NCBI GenBank assembly: GCA_013373635.1
Contig: JABXHN010000016.1
Location: forward strand, 62,001-126,000
DNA: 64,000 bases
Direction: 5' to 3'
From: Flavobacteriaceae bacterium
Lineage (GTDB): Bacteria > Bacteroidota > Bacteroidia > Flavobacteriales > Flavobacteriaceae
In this document: positions 6,657-23,316 of the stretch, in pieces
How the letters are laid out: every line of letters starts with the position of its first letter
Position numbering within the stretch: the first letter of the stretch is position 1
The notes under the pieces: generated by a model
The model's input: the letters and a program-made list of their open reading frames with translations, nothing else
The model's database searches: none
What the model was told of the DNA's origin: nothing
Position numbers and translations under genes: made by a program

Positions 6657-7541
6657 ATGAAAGCATATGTATTTCCAGGTCAGGGAGCTCAATTTCCAGG
6701 AATGGCCAAAGATCTTTACGAAAACTACGATATCGCAAAGGCGATGTTTGAAAAAGCCAATGAAATTTTAGGATTTTCAATTACTGATGTGATGTTTGAA
6801 GGCAGTAAGGAAGATCTTCAACAAACCAAAGTAACGCAACCTGCTATTTTTCTTCACTCTGTAGTACTAAGTGCTATTTTAGGAGAACGTTTTAAGCCAG
6901 ATATGGTTGCTGGACATTCATTGGGAGAGTTCTCAGCTTTAGTAGCTAACAAAACATTGGTTTTTGAAGATGCTCTTAAGCTCGTTTATCAAAGAGCCTT
7001 AGCAATGCAAGCTGCTTGTGAAGCAACTAAGGGAACCATGGCTGCGGTATTAGGACTAGAAGATAAAGTTGTTGAAGAGGTTTGTGAAGCGACTACTGGA
7101 GTGGTGGTTGCAGCAAATTATAACTGTCCAGGTCAATTAGTGATCTCTGGAGCCATCGATCCAGTTACTCAGGCCTGTGAATCTTTAAAAGAAGCTGGTG
7201 CTCGTAGAGCGCTCTTATTACCTGTAGGTGGAGCATTTCATTCACCACTTATGGAACCTGCAAGAGAAGATTTAGCAAAAGCCATAGCAGAGACAGAGTT
7301 TCATACGCCTATTTGTCCAGTATATCAAAACACAGTAGCAGCTGCAGTATCTGATCCAAATCAAATTAAAGAGAATTTAATTGCTCAGCTTACAGCTCCC
7401 GTAAAATGGACTCAGTCAGTTCGAGCGATGATTACTGATGGAGCTAGTGAATTTATCGAAGTAGGACCTGGTAAAGTACTTCAGGGATTGGTTAAAAAAA
7501 TCAATTCTGAAGCTGAGGCTTCATCTGCTACTTTAGAATAG
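6657..7541 (+). CDS. fabD: Malonyl-CoA:ACP transacylase FabD
   Basis: Transfers malonyl from CoA to acyl carrier protein in type II fatty-acid synthesis. The start motif FPGQGAQFPGM, the nucleophile elbow GHSLGEFSA (Ser88), the malonyl-carboxylate Arg (YQRALAMQ, Arg114) and catalytic His196 in GGAFHSPLM are all present. The length of 294 residues is slightly below E. coli FabD (309). It follows the gamma carbonic anhydrase gene and its 3' end overlaps the convergent NRAMP-like gene by 9 bp. It is the direct consumer of malonyl-CoA made by AccD or by the malonate module near 20-22 kb. Confidence 0.96.
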   Translation: MKAYVFPGQGAQFPGMAKDLYENYDIAKAMFEKANEILGFSITDVMFEGSKEDLQQTKVTQPAIFLHSVVLSAILGERFKPDMVAGHSLGEFSALVANKTLVFEDALKLVYQRALAMQAACEATKGTMAAVLGLEDKVVEEVCEATTGVVVAANYNCPGQLVISGAIDPVTQACESLKEAGARRALLLPVGGAFHSPLMEPAREDLAKAIAETEFHTPICPVYQNTVAAAVSDPNQIKENLIAQLTAPVKWTQSVRAMITDGASEFIEVGPGKVLQGLVKKINSEAEASSATLE

Positions 7542-14664: not shown

Positions 14665-15525
14665 TTAGTTACGCAGCGGATTATTCTGAATTAAATCAAT
14701 ATAAAGGTTGATGTTCTTTTTAAGATTTGATCGATGTGATATAAAATCCAAGAAACCGTGTTCTAATAAGAACTCAGAAGTTTGAAATCCTTCTGGAAGA
14801 TCTTGACCAGTAGCTTCTTTAACCACTCGAGGTCCAGCAAATCCTATTAAAGCACCAGGCTCAGAAATATTGATATCTCCGAGCATAGCGTAAGAGGCTG
14901 TTGTACCACCAGTTGTAGGATCGGTACACAAGGATATATAAGGGAGTTGAGCTTCCGCTAATTGAGCAAGTTTTGCAGAAGTTTTTGCAAGTTGCATTAA
15001 CGAAATAGCCGCTTCCATCATACGAGCACCACCAGATTTTGATATCATTACAAATGGTAGTTTTTTCTTGATAGCGTAATCAATACCTCTTGCAATTTTT
15101 TCACCTACTACAGAACCCATAGATCCTCCAATAAAACCAAAATCCATACAACAAACTACTAGGTCTTTTCCTTGAGACTTTCCGACTGCAGTTCTAACAG
15201 CGTCTTTGAGACCTGTTTTTTTCTGGGCAGCTTTTAAACGTTCGTCGTATTTTTTGGTATCTACGAATTTTAATGGATCCTTAGATGTGATATTTTTATC
15301 TAATTCCTTGTATGTATTGTCATCGAAAAGAATTTCAAAATACTCTTTAGAGCCAATTCTAACGTGATAATCATCCTCTGGACTCACATAAAAGTTTTTT
15401 GCAAGTGCGTCAGATTCAACTATTTTGCCCGTTGGAGATCGGTACCATAAGCCTTTAGGAGTGTCCTTTTTTTGCTCGGTAGCCGTTTGAATTCCTTTTT
15501 CTGTTCTTTTAAACCATGCAGCCAT
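14665..15525 (-). CDS. accD: Acetyl-CoA carboxylase carboxyltransferase subunit beta
   Basis: Beta subunit of the carboxyltransferase that makes malonyl-CoA. The crotonase-like core is well conserved: [63 protein letters not shown] and [21 protein letters not shown]. The N-terminal zinc ribbon, four cysteines in E. coli AccD, is present only as a shape: the matching stretches read YRSPTGKI and YVSPEDDYH with no cysteine. Length is 286 residues. accA and biotin carboxylase genes are elsewhere. It is 33 bp downstream of fbaA, on the same strand. Confidence 0.95.
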
Positions 15526-19169: not shown

Positions 19170-19892
19170 ATGGTTGTAAAAAGTAATATAAAACTTATAA
19201 AGAGTCTTCAGCAAAAAAAATATAGATACGAGCATCAATTGTTTGTAGTTGAAGGCAAAAAATCTGTTGAGGAACTCTTAGAATCCGACCTTGAATGCTA
19301 CGGTGTATTTCATACTGCAGATAATAATCTCATTGATTCACATCCAAAAGCAGAAGTTGTCAGTACAAAAGAACTTGCTCAAATGAGTAGTTTGAAAACA
19401 CCTCCTGGAATTTTAGGTGTTTTTCATTTTCCAAAGCCTTCAACTCCTGTTTTTGAAGATTGGTCCCTTGTATTAGACGATATTAGAGATCCTGGAAACC
19501 TAGGAACTATTATTCGATTGTGTGATTGGTTTGGAATTCGACAACTCATTTGTTCAAAGCAGACGGTTGATTGTTACAATCCAAAAACACTTCAGGCTAC
19601 GATGGGTTCCATCTCAAGAGTTCAGATACATTATCAAGATATCAAAGAATTTCTAGCTCAATCGGATCTTCCAATTTATGGAGCATTTATGGATGGCAAT
19701 TCTATCTACAAAGTAAAATTGCCTCAAAAAGGAATTCTTATCATGGGAAATGAGGCTAATGGAATTAGTGAAGATATCGAAAACTTAATGAGCCACCGCA
19801 TCAGTATTCCTTCGTATGGAGATTCTTCTACAGAAAGTCTTAATGTCGCTATGGCGACAGGAATCTTACTCAATGAGATCAGAAGATCATAG
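19170..19892 (+). CDS. TrmH/SpoU-family RNA 2'-O-ribose methyltransferase
   Basis: SPOUT methyltransferase acting on rRNA or tRNA. An N-terminal L30e-like substrate-binding domain (YEHQLFVVEGKKSVEELL) is followed by the catalytic knot: VLDDIRDPGNLGTIIRLCDWFG, ILIMGNEANGIS and ISIPSYGDSSTESLNVAMATGIL, the three SpoU motifs. Length is 240 residues. The exact nucleotide target cannot be decided. It is divergent from tamL. No perfect TAnnTTTG element is visible upstream. Confidence 0.92.
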   Translation: MVVKSNIKLIKSLQQKKYRYEHQLFVVEGKKSVEELLESDLECYGVFHTADNNLIDSHPKAEVVSTKELAQMSSLKTPPGILGVFHFPKPSTPVFEDWSLVLDDIRDPGNLGTIIRLCDWFGIRQLICSKQTVDCYNPKTLQATMGSISRVQIHYQDIKEFLAQSDLPIYGAFMDGNSIYKVKLPQKGILIMGNEANGISEDIENLMSHRISIPSYGDSSTESLNVAMATGILLNEIRRS

Positions 19893-19986: not shown

Positions 19987-21468
19987 ATGATTGAACTTAT
20001 TGAACGCGCTAAAGATTTTTTAGACCGCAGAGCATTAGTAGACCCAAATGGAGAACTATCTTACAGAGAATTGCTTGAAAAATCTGCACAAATTGCTACA
20101 CATTTACTAGATGGTAAGAAGGACTTAAATGAAGCCCGAATAGGTTTTATTGTTGATCCATCATTGGATTATACAATTCTTCAATGGGGTATATGGAGAG
20201 CTGGAGGAATTGCTGTTCCACTATGTGTTAAACATCCTTATGATTCAATTTTGTACACGGTAGAAGATGCTGAAATTTCTAAAGTAGTTTATCACAATGA
20301 TTTTTATAAATTGATCAAACCTTTAGAAGATGGTACTTCTGTTGAATTAATTTCGATCGATTCAATAGAATCCAAGACGGTTCCACTTCCAGATGTTGAA
20401 ATGAATCGCAAAGCGATGATTCTATATACCAGTGGGACTACTGGTAAACCAAAAGGAGTGGTGACCTCTCATCTCAATATCAATTGTCAAATTAAAAGCT
20501 TGGTCACTTCATGGGAGTGGTCACAGGAAGATTATATAATAAATGTATTACCACTTCATCATGTTCACGGAATCATCAATGTAATGAGTTGTGCTCTCTA
20601 CAGTGGTGCTTGTAATGAATTTTTACCCAAGTTTAGTGAAGAGGCTATCTTTGATCGCTTTAAAAGAGGAAGTTGTAATCTCTTTATGGCAGTACCCACC
20701 ATCTATTACAAATTGATTCATTACTATCAATCATTGAGTAGTGAGGAGCAATCTGAAATTTCTGCAGCATTAAAAGAGTTTCGATTGATGGTGTCTGGTT
20801 CAGCTGCATTACCTGTTAAAACATTGGAAGAGTGGAGAACAATCAGCGGCCATACGCTTTTGGAGCGCTATGGAATGACAGAAATGGGAATGGCGATTTC
20901 AAATCCCTATAAAGGAAAACGTAAGCCAGGTTATATTGGACAAGCATTGAGCGGAGTGACCGTTCGTTTAGCTGATGAAAACGATCAGGAAATTACTGAT
21001 GGAGGTCAGGGAGAAATACAGATTAAAGGAGCAAATGTGTTTGTTGAATACTATAATAGGCCTGAAGCAACTGCTGAAACTTTTGTAGATGGTTGGTTTA
21101 AAACTGGTGACATCGCTGTTTTTGAAGATGGAGCCTATCGAATCTTAGGACGAAATTCGGTAGATATCATTAAATCTGGAGGATATAAAATATCAGCTCT
21201 TGAAATAGAGGAGGTTCTCAGAAAACACCCTGCTGTAAAAGATTGCGGAGTGGTTGGGATTCCTGATGAAGAATGGGGTGAACTTATTGGTGCCAGTTTG
21301 ATCTTAGCAGATCAATCAGTTTCAATCGATTCAGTAAAAAAATGGATGAAAGACAAAATAGCCGCTTATAAATTGCCTAGAAAATACATTGTTCAGGAGG
21401 ATTTACCTAGAAACGTTATGGGTAAGGTGACTAAAAAAGAACTTCAAAAAATATTAGCTGAGTCATGA
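19987..21468 (+). CDS. matB: Malonyl-CoA synthetase (MatB-like acyl-CoA ligase)
   Basis: Adenylate-forming ligase, 493 residues. Motifs: the P-loop YTSGTTGKPKG at 147-157, LLERYGMTEMGMAISNPYKG, which closely resembles the malonyl-CoA synthetase signature, GWFKTGDIA, the hinge GRNSVDIIKSGGYKIS and the catalytic Lys480 in NVMGKVTKKEL. Malonate specificity is inferred from this motif and above all from the context: its stop overlaps madL (ATGA) and madL overlaps madM, the malonate transporter genes. The likely reaction is malonate + ATP + CoA to malonyl-CoA. No malonyl-CoA decarboxylase is nearby, so the product may feed FabD. No clear promoter element in the 94 bp upstream. Confidence 0.85.
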   Translation: MIELIERAKDFLDRRALVDPNGELSYRELLEKSAQIATHLLDGKKDLNEARIGFIVDPSLDYTILQWGIWRAGGIAVPLCVKHPYDSILYTVEDAEISKVVYHNDFYKLIKPLEDGTSVELISIDSIESKTVPLPDVEMNRKAMILYTSGTTGKPKGVVTSHLNINCQIKSLVTSWEWSQEDYIINVLPLHHVHGIINVMSCALYSGACNEFLPKFSEEAIFDRFKRGSCNLFMAVPTIYYKLIHYYQSLSSEEQSEISAALKEFRLMVSGSAALPVKTLEEWRTISGHTLLERYGMTEMGMAISNPYKGKRKPGYIGQALSGVTVRLADENDQEITDGGQGEIQIKGANVFVEYYNRPEATAETFVDGWFKTGDIAVFEDGAYRILGRNSVDIIKSGGYKISALEIEEVLRKHPAVKDCGVVGIPDEEWGELIGASLILADQSVSIDSVKKWMKDKIAAYKLPRKYIVQEDLPRNVMGKVTKKELQKILAES

Positions 21469-21845
21469 AAATATACGGAGTAGCCTTATTGGTTTTTTGT
21501 TTTTTAATCGGTAAGTATTTGGGAGGATTACTCGCTGAATTAATCGGTATATCTGGAGATGTTGGAGGGGTTGGATTTGCGATGTTACTTCTGATGTTTG
21601 CCAATGGATTTTTAAAACGTTTTAGTTGGTACGAAGTTCAAACTAAAGCAGGAGTTTTGTTTTGGAGTAGTATGTATATTCCTGTAATTGTCGCTATGGC
21701 AGCTACCAGAAATGTACACGCTGCTATCTCTGGAGGCTGGACTGCTTTAATAGCTGGAGTAGCAGTAACTCTTGTAGGTTTTATGCTCGTACCGCTGCTT
21801 TCAAAAATAAGAACTACTAAACAAGAATCAGATGGAACTATTTAA
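21465..21845 (+). CDS. madL: Malonate transporter subunit MadL
   Basis: Small integral membrane protein of 126 residues with about four membrane segments. It opens MKIYGVALLVFCFLIGKYLGGLLAELIG and contains GDVGGVGFAMLLLMFANGFL, features of MadL in malonate-using bacteria. It acts with MadM as a sodium-dependent malonate uptake system in characterised Malonomonas. Its ATG overlaps the synthetase stop by 4 bp and its 3' end overlaps madM by 14 bp, so the three products are probably made together. Confidence 0.85.
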   Translation: MKIYGVALLVFCFLIGKYLGGLLAELIGISGDVGGVGFAMLLLMFANGFLKRFSWYEVQTKAGVLFWSSMYIPVIVAMAATRNVHAAISGGWTALIAGVAVTLVGFMLVPLLSKIRTTKQESDGTI

Positions 21846-22578
21846 AGAATTAATATCCAAGAATGGGCTCTTGTTTGCTTTTCTGTTAGTAGGGCTTATT
21901 CTAGGCGCTTCACAACTGCTTTCTAAACATTTGTTTAAAGGCAGAATACCCGCTGCAGCAATTGCGATCATTGGAGCCTTGATTTTAGCTTTTTTTGGTG
22001 CTGATAAAGGCTTAGCGAATATTGAAATATTTGCAGGATTAGCAGTTTTAGGTGGATCAATGTTTCGAGACTTCACCGTTGTCGCTACAGCTATGGGGGC
22101 TGAAATCGAAAAAATTAAACAAGCAGGATTGGCAGGTATACTTTCATTGTTTATTGGAGTCTCCTTTTCATTTGTAATTGGAGTCATCATTGCTTACGCT
22201 ATGGGATATACTGATGTAAAAGACCTAACTGCTATTGGAGCAGGGGCTTGTACTTATATTGTTGGACCGATAACCGGAACTGCAATTGGAGCGAGTTCGG
22301 ATGTGATTGCACTGGGAATTACTGCTGGGGTAGTTAAGACCATTGTCACAACTTTATTAACTCCACTGGTTGCGAAACAAATCAAATTGACGACTCCACA
22401 TGCTGCAATGGTGTTCGGAGGTCTTATAGGAACAACAAGTGGTGTTACTGCTGGATTGGCGGCTACAGATAAGGAATTGGTTCCCTATGGTGCTTTTACT
22501 GCGACCTTCTATACGGGTTTAGGATGTCTGCTTTGCCCATCAATTTTTTACTATCTATTGATGCAGCTATTGGGCTAA
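21832..22578 (+). CDS. madM: Malonate transporter subunit MadM
   Basis: Integral membrane protein of 248 residues with about eight hydrophobic segments. Glycine-rich family stretches include IFAGLAVLGGSMFRDFTVVATAMGAE, TAIGAGACTYIVGPITGTAIGASSDVIALGI and MVFGGLIGTTSGVTAGLAATDKELVPYGAFTATFYTGLGCLL. This matches MadM, partner of MadL. It ends flush against the convergent porT gene (TAATTA carries both stops) with no terminator. Confidence 0.87.
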   Translation: MELFKELISKNGLLFAFLLVGLILGASQLLSKHLFKGRIPAAAIAIIGALILAFFGADKGLANIEIFAGLAVLGGSMFRDFTVVATAMGAEIEKIKQAGLAGILSLFIGVSFSFVIGVIIAYAMGYTDVKDLTAIGAGACTYIVGPITGTAIGASSDVIALGITAGVVKTIVTTLLTPLVAKQIKLTTPHAAMVFGGLIGTTSGVTAGLAATDKELVPYGAFTATFYTGLGCLLCPSIFYYLLMQLLG

Positions 22579-23316
22579 TTATTCAAAAGTCAATACGATG
22601 AATAAACCTCTAGTATGAGCAGAACTAATCTGATCTGAGTAATTTCTGATTTCTTTAGTCTTTGGTATTGATAAGTCATCGTGTACCATTTCATCGACAA
22701 GTCCAAATATTCCTCTAATAGAGGGGGTGAATTTAAAATAGGGAAGGTAGAATTCAACTCCCACACCAATTTCGTAATTATAAGTAAGGCTTTTTAATCT
22801 GAATACACCACTTTCGATAGAATCAGGAGAATTCTGATTACTACTCATATTGTAAGAAAGAGAAGGTCCGCCAATTACAAAGGGTCTCCAGTTTCCGATA
22901 CGTTTTGCTCCGTATTTGATTAAAAATGGGAAGTTTAAGAAGGTCGATTTTACCGATCGAAGTGGATCTCCAGCTGATAGGTCAATCGGAAAATACAAAT
23001 CTCTTTTGGTACTGTATAGTCCTGGTTCAAATCGAAGATCAAAATTATCGTTTAGTCTGAGTTCTCCCACTAATCCAACCAAAAAACCGTTGCTGGTTTC
23101 TACTTGAACACTTTCAAATCCTCCATTAGCAGTTGTTGGATAGGTGTCGCTGTAGTTAAATTTGAAATTGTAGGCATTTCCTCCTAAATAATAACCCCAG
23201 TTGAATTTTTTATAATCATCAGTTGGGATATTTTCAACCGGGTTGACATTGAATTGTCCATAAACACTAGTGCTTAAAAACAGTAAAAGGAGATATGTTA
23301 GGTTGCGATTTCTCAT
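22579..23316 (-). CDS. porT: PorT/SprT-type outer-membrane protein of type IX secretion
   Basis: Secreted beta-barrel protein of 245 residues. It has a signal peptide ([20 protein letters not shown]) and an antiparallel barrel with the pattern FNWGYYLGGNAYNFKFNY, GYFLVGLVGELRLNDNFDLRFEPGLYSTKRDLYFP-like segments and a C-terminal GLFIVLTFE. PorT-family proteins are needed for T9SS secretion and gliding in Bacteroidota. Location directly after ubiE, with overlapping stop and start (TAATG), matches my recollection of sprT in Flavobacterium. Other PorT-like barrels have different roles, so the T9SS assignment is probable rather than proven. Confidence 0.78.
   Translation of the reverse strand: MRNRNLTYLLLLFLSTSVYGQFNVNPVENIPTDDYKKFNWGYYLGGNAYNFKFNYSDTYPTTANGGFESVQVETSNGFLVGLVGELRLNDNFDLRFEPGLYSTKRDLYFPIDLSAGDPLRSVKSTFLNFPFLIKYGAKRIGNWRPFVIGGPSLSYNMSSNQNSPDSIESGVFRLKSLTYNYEIGVGVEFYLPYFKFTPSIRGIFGLVDEMVHDDLSIPKTKEIRNYSDQISSAHTRGLFIVLTFE

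Follow-up and report, generated by a model that had tools for sequence, protein, structure and literature searches.

The stretch of DNA analysed here (the window, 64,000 nucleotides of the genome of a marine-type member of the Flavobacteriaceae) contains a real, conserved and compact operon of three overlapping genes, matB-madL-madM, which is probably a transferable unit for scavenging malonate: its products would import the acid and activate it to malonyl-CoA, which would then be used in fatty-acid synthesis. A natural matB-madL-madM operon that lacks a decarboxylase and carries a divergent ligase is new, and represents a modest variant of known malonate-utilisation systems.

The gene trio and its products

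The first gene (19987..21468, forward strand) encodes a matB-like acyl-CoA (malonyl-CoA) ligase of 493 aa with domains PF00501 and PF13193. It is followed on the same strand by madL (21465..21845, 126 aa; PF03817, TIGR00807) and madM (21832..22578, 248 aa; PF03818, TIGR00808), for the small and large subunits of a malonate transporter. The ligase gene and madL overlap by 4 bp (ATGA), and madL and madM by 14 bp; both the three overlapping reading frames and their overlaps are exactly as a preliminary description of this DNA had placed them. The module is flanked on the left by a gene for a SpoU-type RNA methyltransferase (19170..19892, forward strand; PF00588) and on the right by an outer-membrane beta-barrel gene (22579..23316, reverse strand; PF13568), both outside it. 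The GC content of the trio (0.37–0.41) is near that of the window (0.37) and so does not point to a recent arrival from elsewhere, and promoter and terminator patterns are no commoner than in shuffled sequence.

MadL scores 142 bits against PF03817 and 126.7 bits against TIGR00807 (curated equivalog cut-off 113.45), and MadM scores 334 bits against PF03818 and 302.5 bits against TIGR00808 (cut-off 236.3); with both subunits above their equivalog cut-offs, and above those of Pfam too, and their genes adjacent, the pair is identified as a MadL/MadM malonate transporter. MadLM is a family of importers, and we infer for the present pair the direction and ion coupling of the characterised family, by which it would carry malonate into the cell in symport with Na+. 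The AlphaFold model of MadM, built from 33 sequences, is weak (pLDDT 78, pTM 0.69); compared with the PDB, this low-confidence model produced no significant match (best E 0.21) and no fold class was assigned. Kinship of MadM with LrgB (E. coli YohK) was considered and is unsupported, at an hhalign probability of 0.6% against a single sequence.

When the ligase was compared with proteins of solved structure, the best five sequence matches were all MatB (1e-76 to 1e-73, 252–262 bits), the nearest being those of R. palustris and S. coelicolor, and the next class was oxalate-CoA ligase (5e-53, 184 bits). Its AlphaFold model (mean pLDDT 88) likewise has 4fuq, MatB of Rhodopseudomonas palustris, as top PDB match. 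Identity to characterised MatBs is 31–32%, and the score against the NCBIfam malonyl-CoA synthase model PRK07514 is 355 bits, below the curated cut-off of 558, whereas the MatBs found beside madLM in Paracoccus, Nocardiopsis and a Kordiimonadaceae metagenome-assembled genome (MAG) reach 739–803 bits. MatB is the best available guess for this protein rather than a formal membership, and by sequence the ligase and its orthologues form a separate, coherent group apart from the canonical MatBs.

Residues of the ligase were compared in an alignment of 70 sequences, comprising the window's ligase and 69 neighbouring orthologues. The RYGMTE and SNPY stretches noted in the preliminary description are found at residues 294–299 and 305–308, and R294, the arginine of ERYGMTE, is invariant in 70 of 70. 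Residue 242 is Lys in 69 of the 70 (motif PTIY-x-K), where the Paracoccus, Nocardiopsis and Kordiimonadaceae proteins, RpMatB and ScMatB have Arg (PT-x-Y-x-R). We take this Arg to be R236 of S. coelicolor MatB, which presumably binds the free carboxylate, a role that Lys 242 could fill; human ACSF3, we assume, has Lys at the same site. A possible resemblance of the ligase to mitochondrial ACSF3 would add an evolutionary link; ACSF3 has no entry among the PDB matches listed for the ligase. K480 (LPRNVMGKV), invariant in alignment A4, aligns with the catalytic K488 of RpMatB, and the K488A substitution in that enzyme blocks adenylation (PMC5479551). Malonate is the predicted substrate of the ligase, which would join it to CoA, with conversion of ATP to AMP and PPi, to yield malonyl-CoA.

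Distribution and mobility of the unit

The 80 named loci nearest to the window's MadM, a set that favours close relatives of the query, include 67 with strict matB-madL-madM order; nearly all are from Bacteroidota, and recurrence of the same order in so many loci argues that the arrangement is not due to chance. In three further loci matB lies upstream at a distance of a few hundred bp, another three have a secreted esterase-like gene separating matB from madL, and the remainder are broken, lie at contig edges or belong to other types. Apart from the trio itself, no gene family recurs in more than 8 of the neighbourhoods of the nearest MadM loci, and the operon has no conserved neighbour that encodes a regulator or an enzyme releasing malonate. 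The pairwise divergence of the ligase follows that of MadM (r = 0.73 over 56 loci, with 0 of 999 permutations as high), from which we conclude that the two travel together. Three loci that have no adjacent ligase match (L062, L061 and L090) have an orthologous ligase elsewhere in the assembly.

The presence of the unit is sporadic. Counts at the curated cut-off, each of which includes the window's own genome, gave MadM in 2 of 60 near relatives, which both share the genus of the window, in 8 of 400 Flavobacteriaceae and in 6 of 396 genomes from a phylum-wide sample; in all six of the latter, which have a true MadM, the genes for an acyl-CoA ligase, MadL and MadM are consecutive. The cultured species Maribacter stanieri and Algoriphagus aquaeductus are among the carriers. 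In eight congeneric genomes the SpoU-methyltransferase and outer-membrane-protein genes directly abut with nothing between them, in a gene order otherwise conserved with the window, one of the eight (L106) ending at a contig edge. The adjacency of the flanks in these congeners indicates that the module entered as one piece of 2.6 kb, its loss as one piece being less likely, and the trio behaves as a self-contained insert. The ligase tree, in which many deep forks are weak, intermixes Flavobacteriaceae, Cyclobacteriaceae, Saprospiraceae and Lewinellaceae, and the sole close partner of the window's ligase is that of a congener (G004); sequence relationships of this kind suggest transfer of the unit between families.

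Several loci depart from the common arrangement. In three MAGs (L059:1763-3169, L060:6014-7621 and L077:945-2507) matB and madL are separated by a gene for a secreted-looking protein with an esterase (BD-FAE) and a GDSL hydrolase domain, which might release malonate from malonyl esters. At L062:6006-7589 a peptide-amidase-like gene lies ahead of madLM in the place of matB; the idea that the amidases next to madLM in L062 and L041 act as malonamidases was rejected, their nearest solved relatives being a peptide amidase and amidases of GatA type or other kinds. In a Kordiimonadaceae MAG (L087:7627-10290) a canonical MatB lies downstream of MadLM and malonyl-CoA decarboxylase is not detectable, and a MatB-like ligase is likewise downstream of MadLM in a Cyclobacteriaceae MAG (L065:241-2812). 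A search of the literature on malonate growth in genera carrying the unit returned nothing useful.

Decarboxylases and comparison with known systems

The window's genome is 99.9% complete by the tool's figure. Malonyl-CoA decarboxylase (MCD, PF05292) was not found in it or in 20 other MadM-bearing Bacteroidota genomes, while the positive control for this search, Nocardiopsis, did return an MCD; the alpha subunit of malonate decarboxylase (PF16957) was not found in the same genome or in 22 others (23 in total). The preliminary description had observed that no decarboxylase gene is nearby and had called for a full-genome search for matA and mdc. For the two families searched (PF05292 and PF16957) the observation holds genome-wide, with neither an MCD nor an mdc alpha homologue coming to light.

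Malonate import and ligation to CoA are also combined in the rhizobial matABC system (MCD, malonyl-CoA synthetase and the MatC carrier), which differs from the present operon in its transporter family and its decarboxylase. Closer in layout is the matA-matB-madL-madM locus of Paracoccus (L110, NZ_CP034811.1), in which malonyl-CoA synthase is directly upstream of madL and madM as it is here, but with malonyl-CoA decarboxylase in front and a GntR regulator on each side; its MatB is canonical, scoring 769 bits where the window's ligase scores 355 against the cut-off of 558 (PRK07514). In Nocardiopsis (L070) MatB adjoins MadLM as well, with the decarboxylase fused to the ligase: at L070:4561-7569 of N. 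xinjiangensis, a single gene of 1002 aa comprising malonyl-CoA decarboxylase and malonyl-CoA synthase adjoins madLM. The two-subunit transporter is shared with the madLM-mdc and Malonomonas mad operons (Azospirillum L109, Cupriavidus L111, Bradyrhizobium L113), where MadLM feeds malonate decarboxylase, the enzyme for which the window's genome has no alpha-subunit homologue. Among proteobacterial plasmid loci, mdc lies beside madLM in four and matA-matB-madL-madM occurs in one. On the Rhodobacter capsulatus plasmid pRCB133 (L112:391-7576), a malonate decarboxylase operon lies beside biotin-transport genes and also holds a short AMP-binding protein and a biotin/lipoyl-domain protein. Both functions of the present operon have been combined in E. 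coli by engineering, where MatB and MadLM supply malonyl-CoA or fluoromalonyl-CoA from the imported acid (PMC12303837, PMC9428585); that system was built by hand from characterised genes, whereas here a natural operon has a divergent ligase. The preliminary description had called the combination of MadLM and MatB without malonate decarboxylase little studied, which is true of the natural MatA-less form with its divergent ligase and not of the MatB-MadLM pairing itself, seen in Paracoccus, Nocardiopsis and engineered E. coli.

The fate of malonyl-CoA

FabD, malonyl-CoA:ACP transacylase, is encoded inside the window, as had been reported (6657..7541, forward strand; TIGR00128 331 bits, cut-off 260.9), and accD, for the carboxyltransferase beta subunit of acetyl-CoA carboxylase (14665..15525, reverse strand; TIGR00515 341.5 bits, cut-off 317.45), lies 4 kb from the trio, with accA elsewhere in the genome. 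Judged by these two subunits, which were the ones searched, acetyl-CoA carboxylase is probably retained, and with both present the malonate route can only supplement it. The preliminary description had proposed that imported malonate could bypass acetyl-CoA carboxylase: malonate import and activation by the trio are supported, but a bypass of the carboxylase is too strong a claim in view of accD and accA. In the route that we favour, malonyl-CoA made from malonate would add to the supply from acetyl-CoA carboxylase, fatty-acid synthesis would draw on the malonyl group once FabD had transferred it to acyl carrier protein, and CO2 would be lost at the ordinary ketosynthase condensation. Such a fate of malonyl-CoA, which we infer, is workable in engineered E. 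coli: in a strain lacking biotin synthesis, MatB and the importer MatC provide the malonyl-CoA that goes into fatty acids; the combination of MatB and an importer of malonate takes the place of the biotin-dependent malonyl-CoA supply and increases fatty-acid titres; and MadLM can be the importer alongside MatB (PMC12303837).

Import and activation might instead serve carbon and energy supply, malonyl-CoA being converted to acetyl-CoA for central metabolism by an enzyme other than MCD, for example a biotin-dependent acyl-CoA carboxylase in reverse or a side activity of a ketosynthase. Among the Proteobacteria and Actinobacteria that were examined, most MadLM operons are linked to decarboxylation, and the genome does encode a carboxyltransferase of 542 aa (L122) related to methylmalonyl-CoA decarboxylase and acyl-CoA carboxylases. 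Yet this protein falls far under the decarboxylase model (347 bits against a cut-off of 998.8) and is unlinked to the operon, and neither MCD nor malonate decarboxylase is present in 21 Bacteroidota genomes, so that we regard this use as unlikely. Somewhat less probable again is that the operon really handles methylmalonate, or some other small dicarboxylate, with the product passing through methylmalonyl-CoA mutase to succinyl-CoA. A two-subunit mutase is encoded in the genome, the ligase comes from a divergent branch whose acid-pocket region has Lys in place of Arg, S. coelicolor MatB was crystallised with methylmalonyl-CoA (3nyq), and ACSF3 also accepts methylmalonate, though less well (PMC8770830). 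Against this, MadL and MadM both exceed the cut-offs for malonate-transporter equivalogs, and no recurrent neighbour of the trio points to a mutase or epimerase partner. A role in detoxification would fit an accessory trait that is sporadically present and inserted as a self-contained piece, but the operon's own importer would be hard to reconcile with that purpose unless the transporter exports, and MadLM is generally known, and was used in PMC12303837, as an importer; we consider it very improbable.

A broader and more tentative proposal is that Bacteroidota possess a minimal operon for malonate salvage that moves horizontally, whose divergent ligase is a separate branch of malonyl-CoA synthetases, and which would channel environmental malonate directly into fatty acids, sparing acetyl-CoA carboxylase; it would be nature's equivalent of the bypass engineered with MatB and an importer. 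If malonate is indeed the substrate, the small unit would offer malonyl-CoA engineering a natural importer and activator in compact form, MadLM would not be bound to decarboxylation, contrary to the hint from its usual gene neighbours, and for a set of aquatic and soil Bacteroidota malonate could be a lipid precursor available ready-made.
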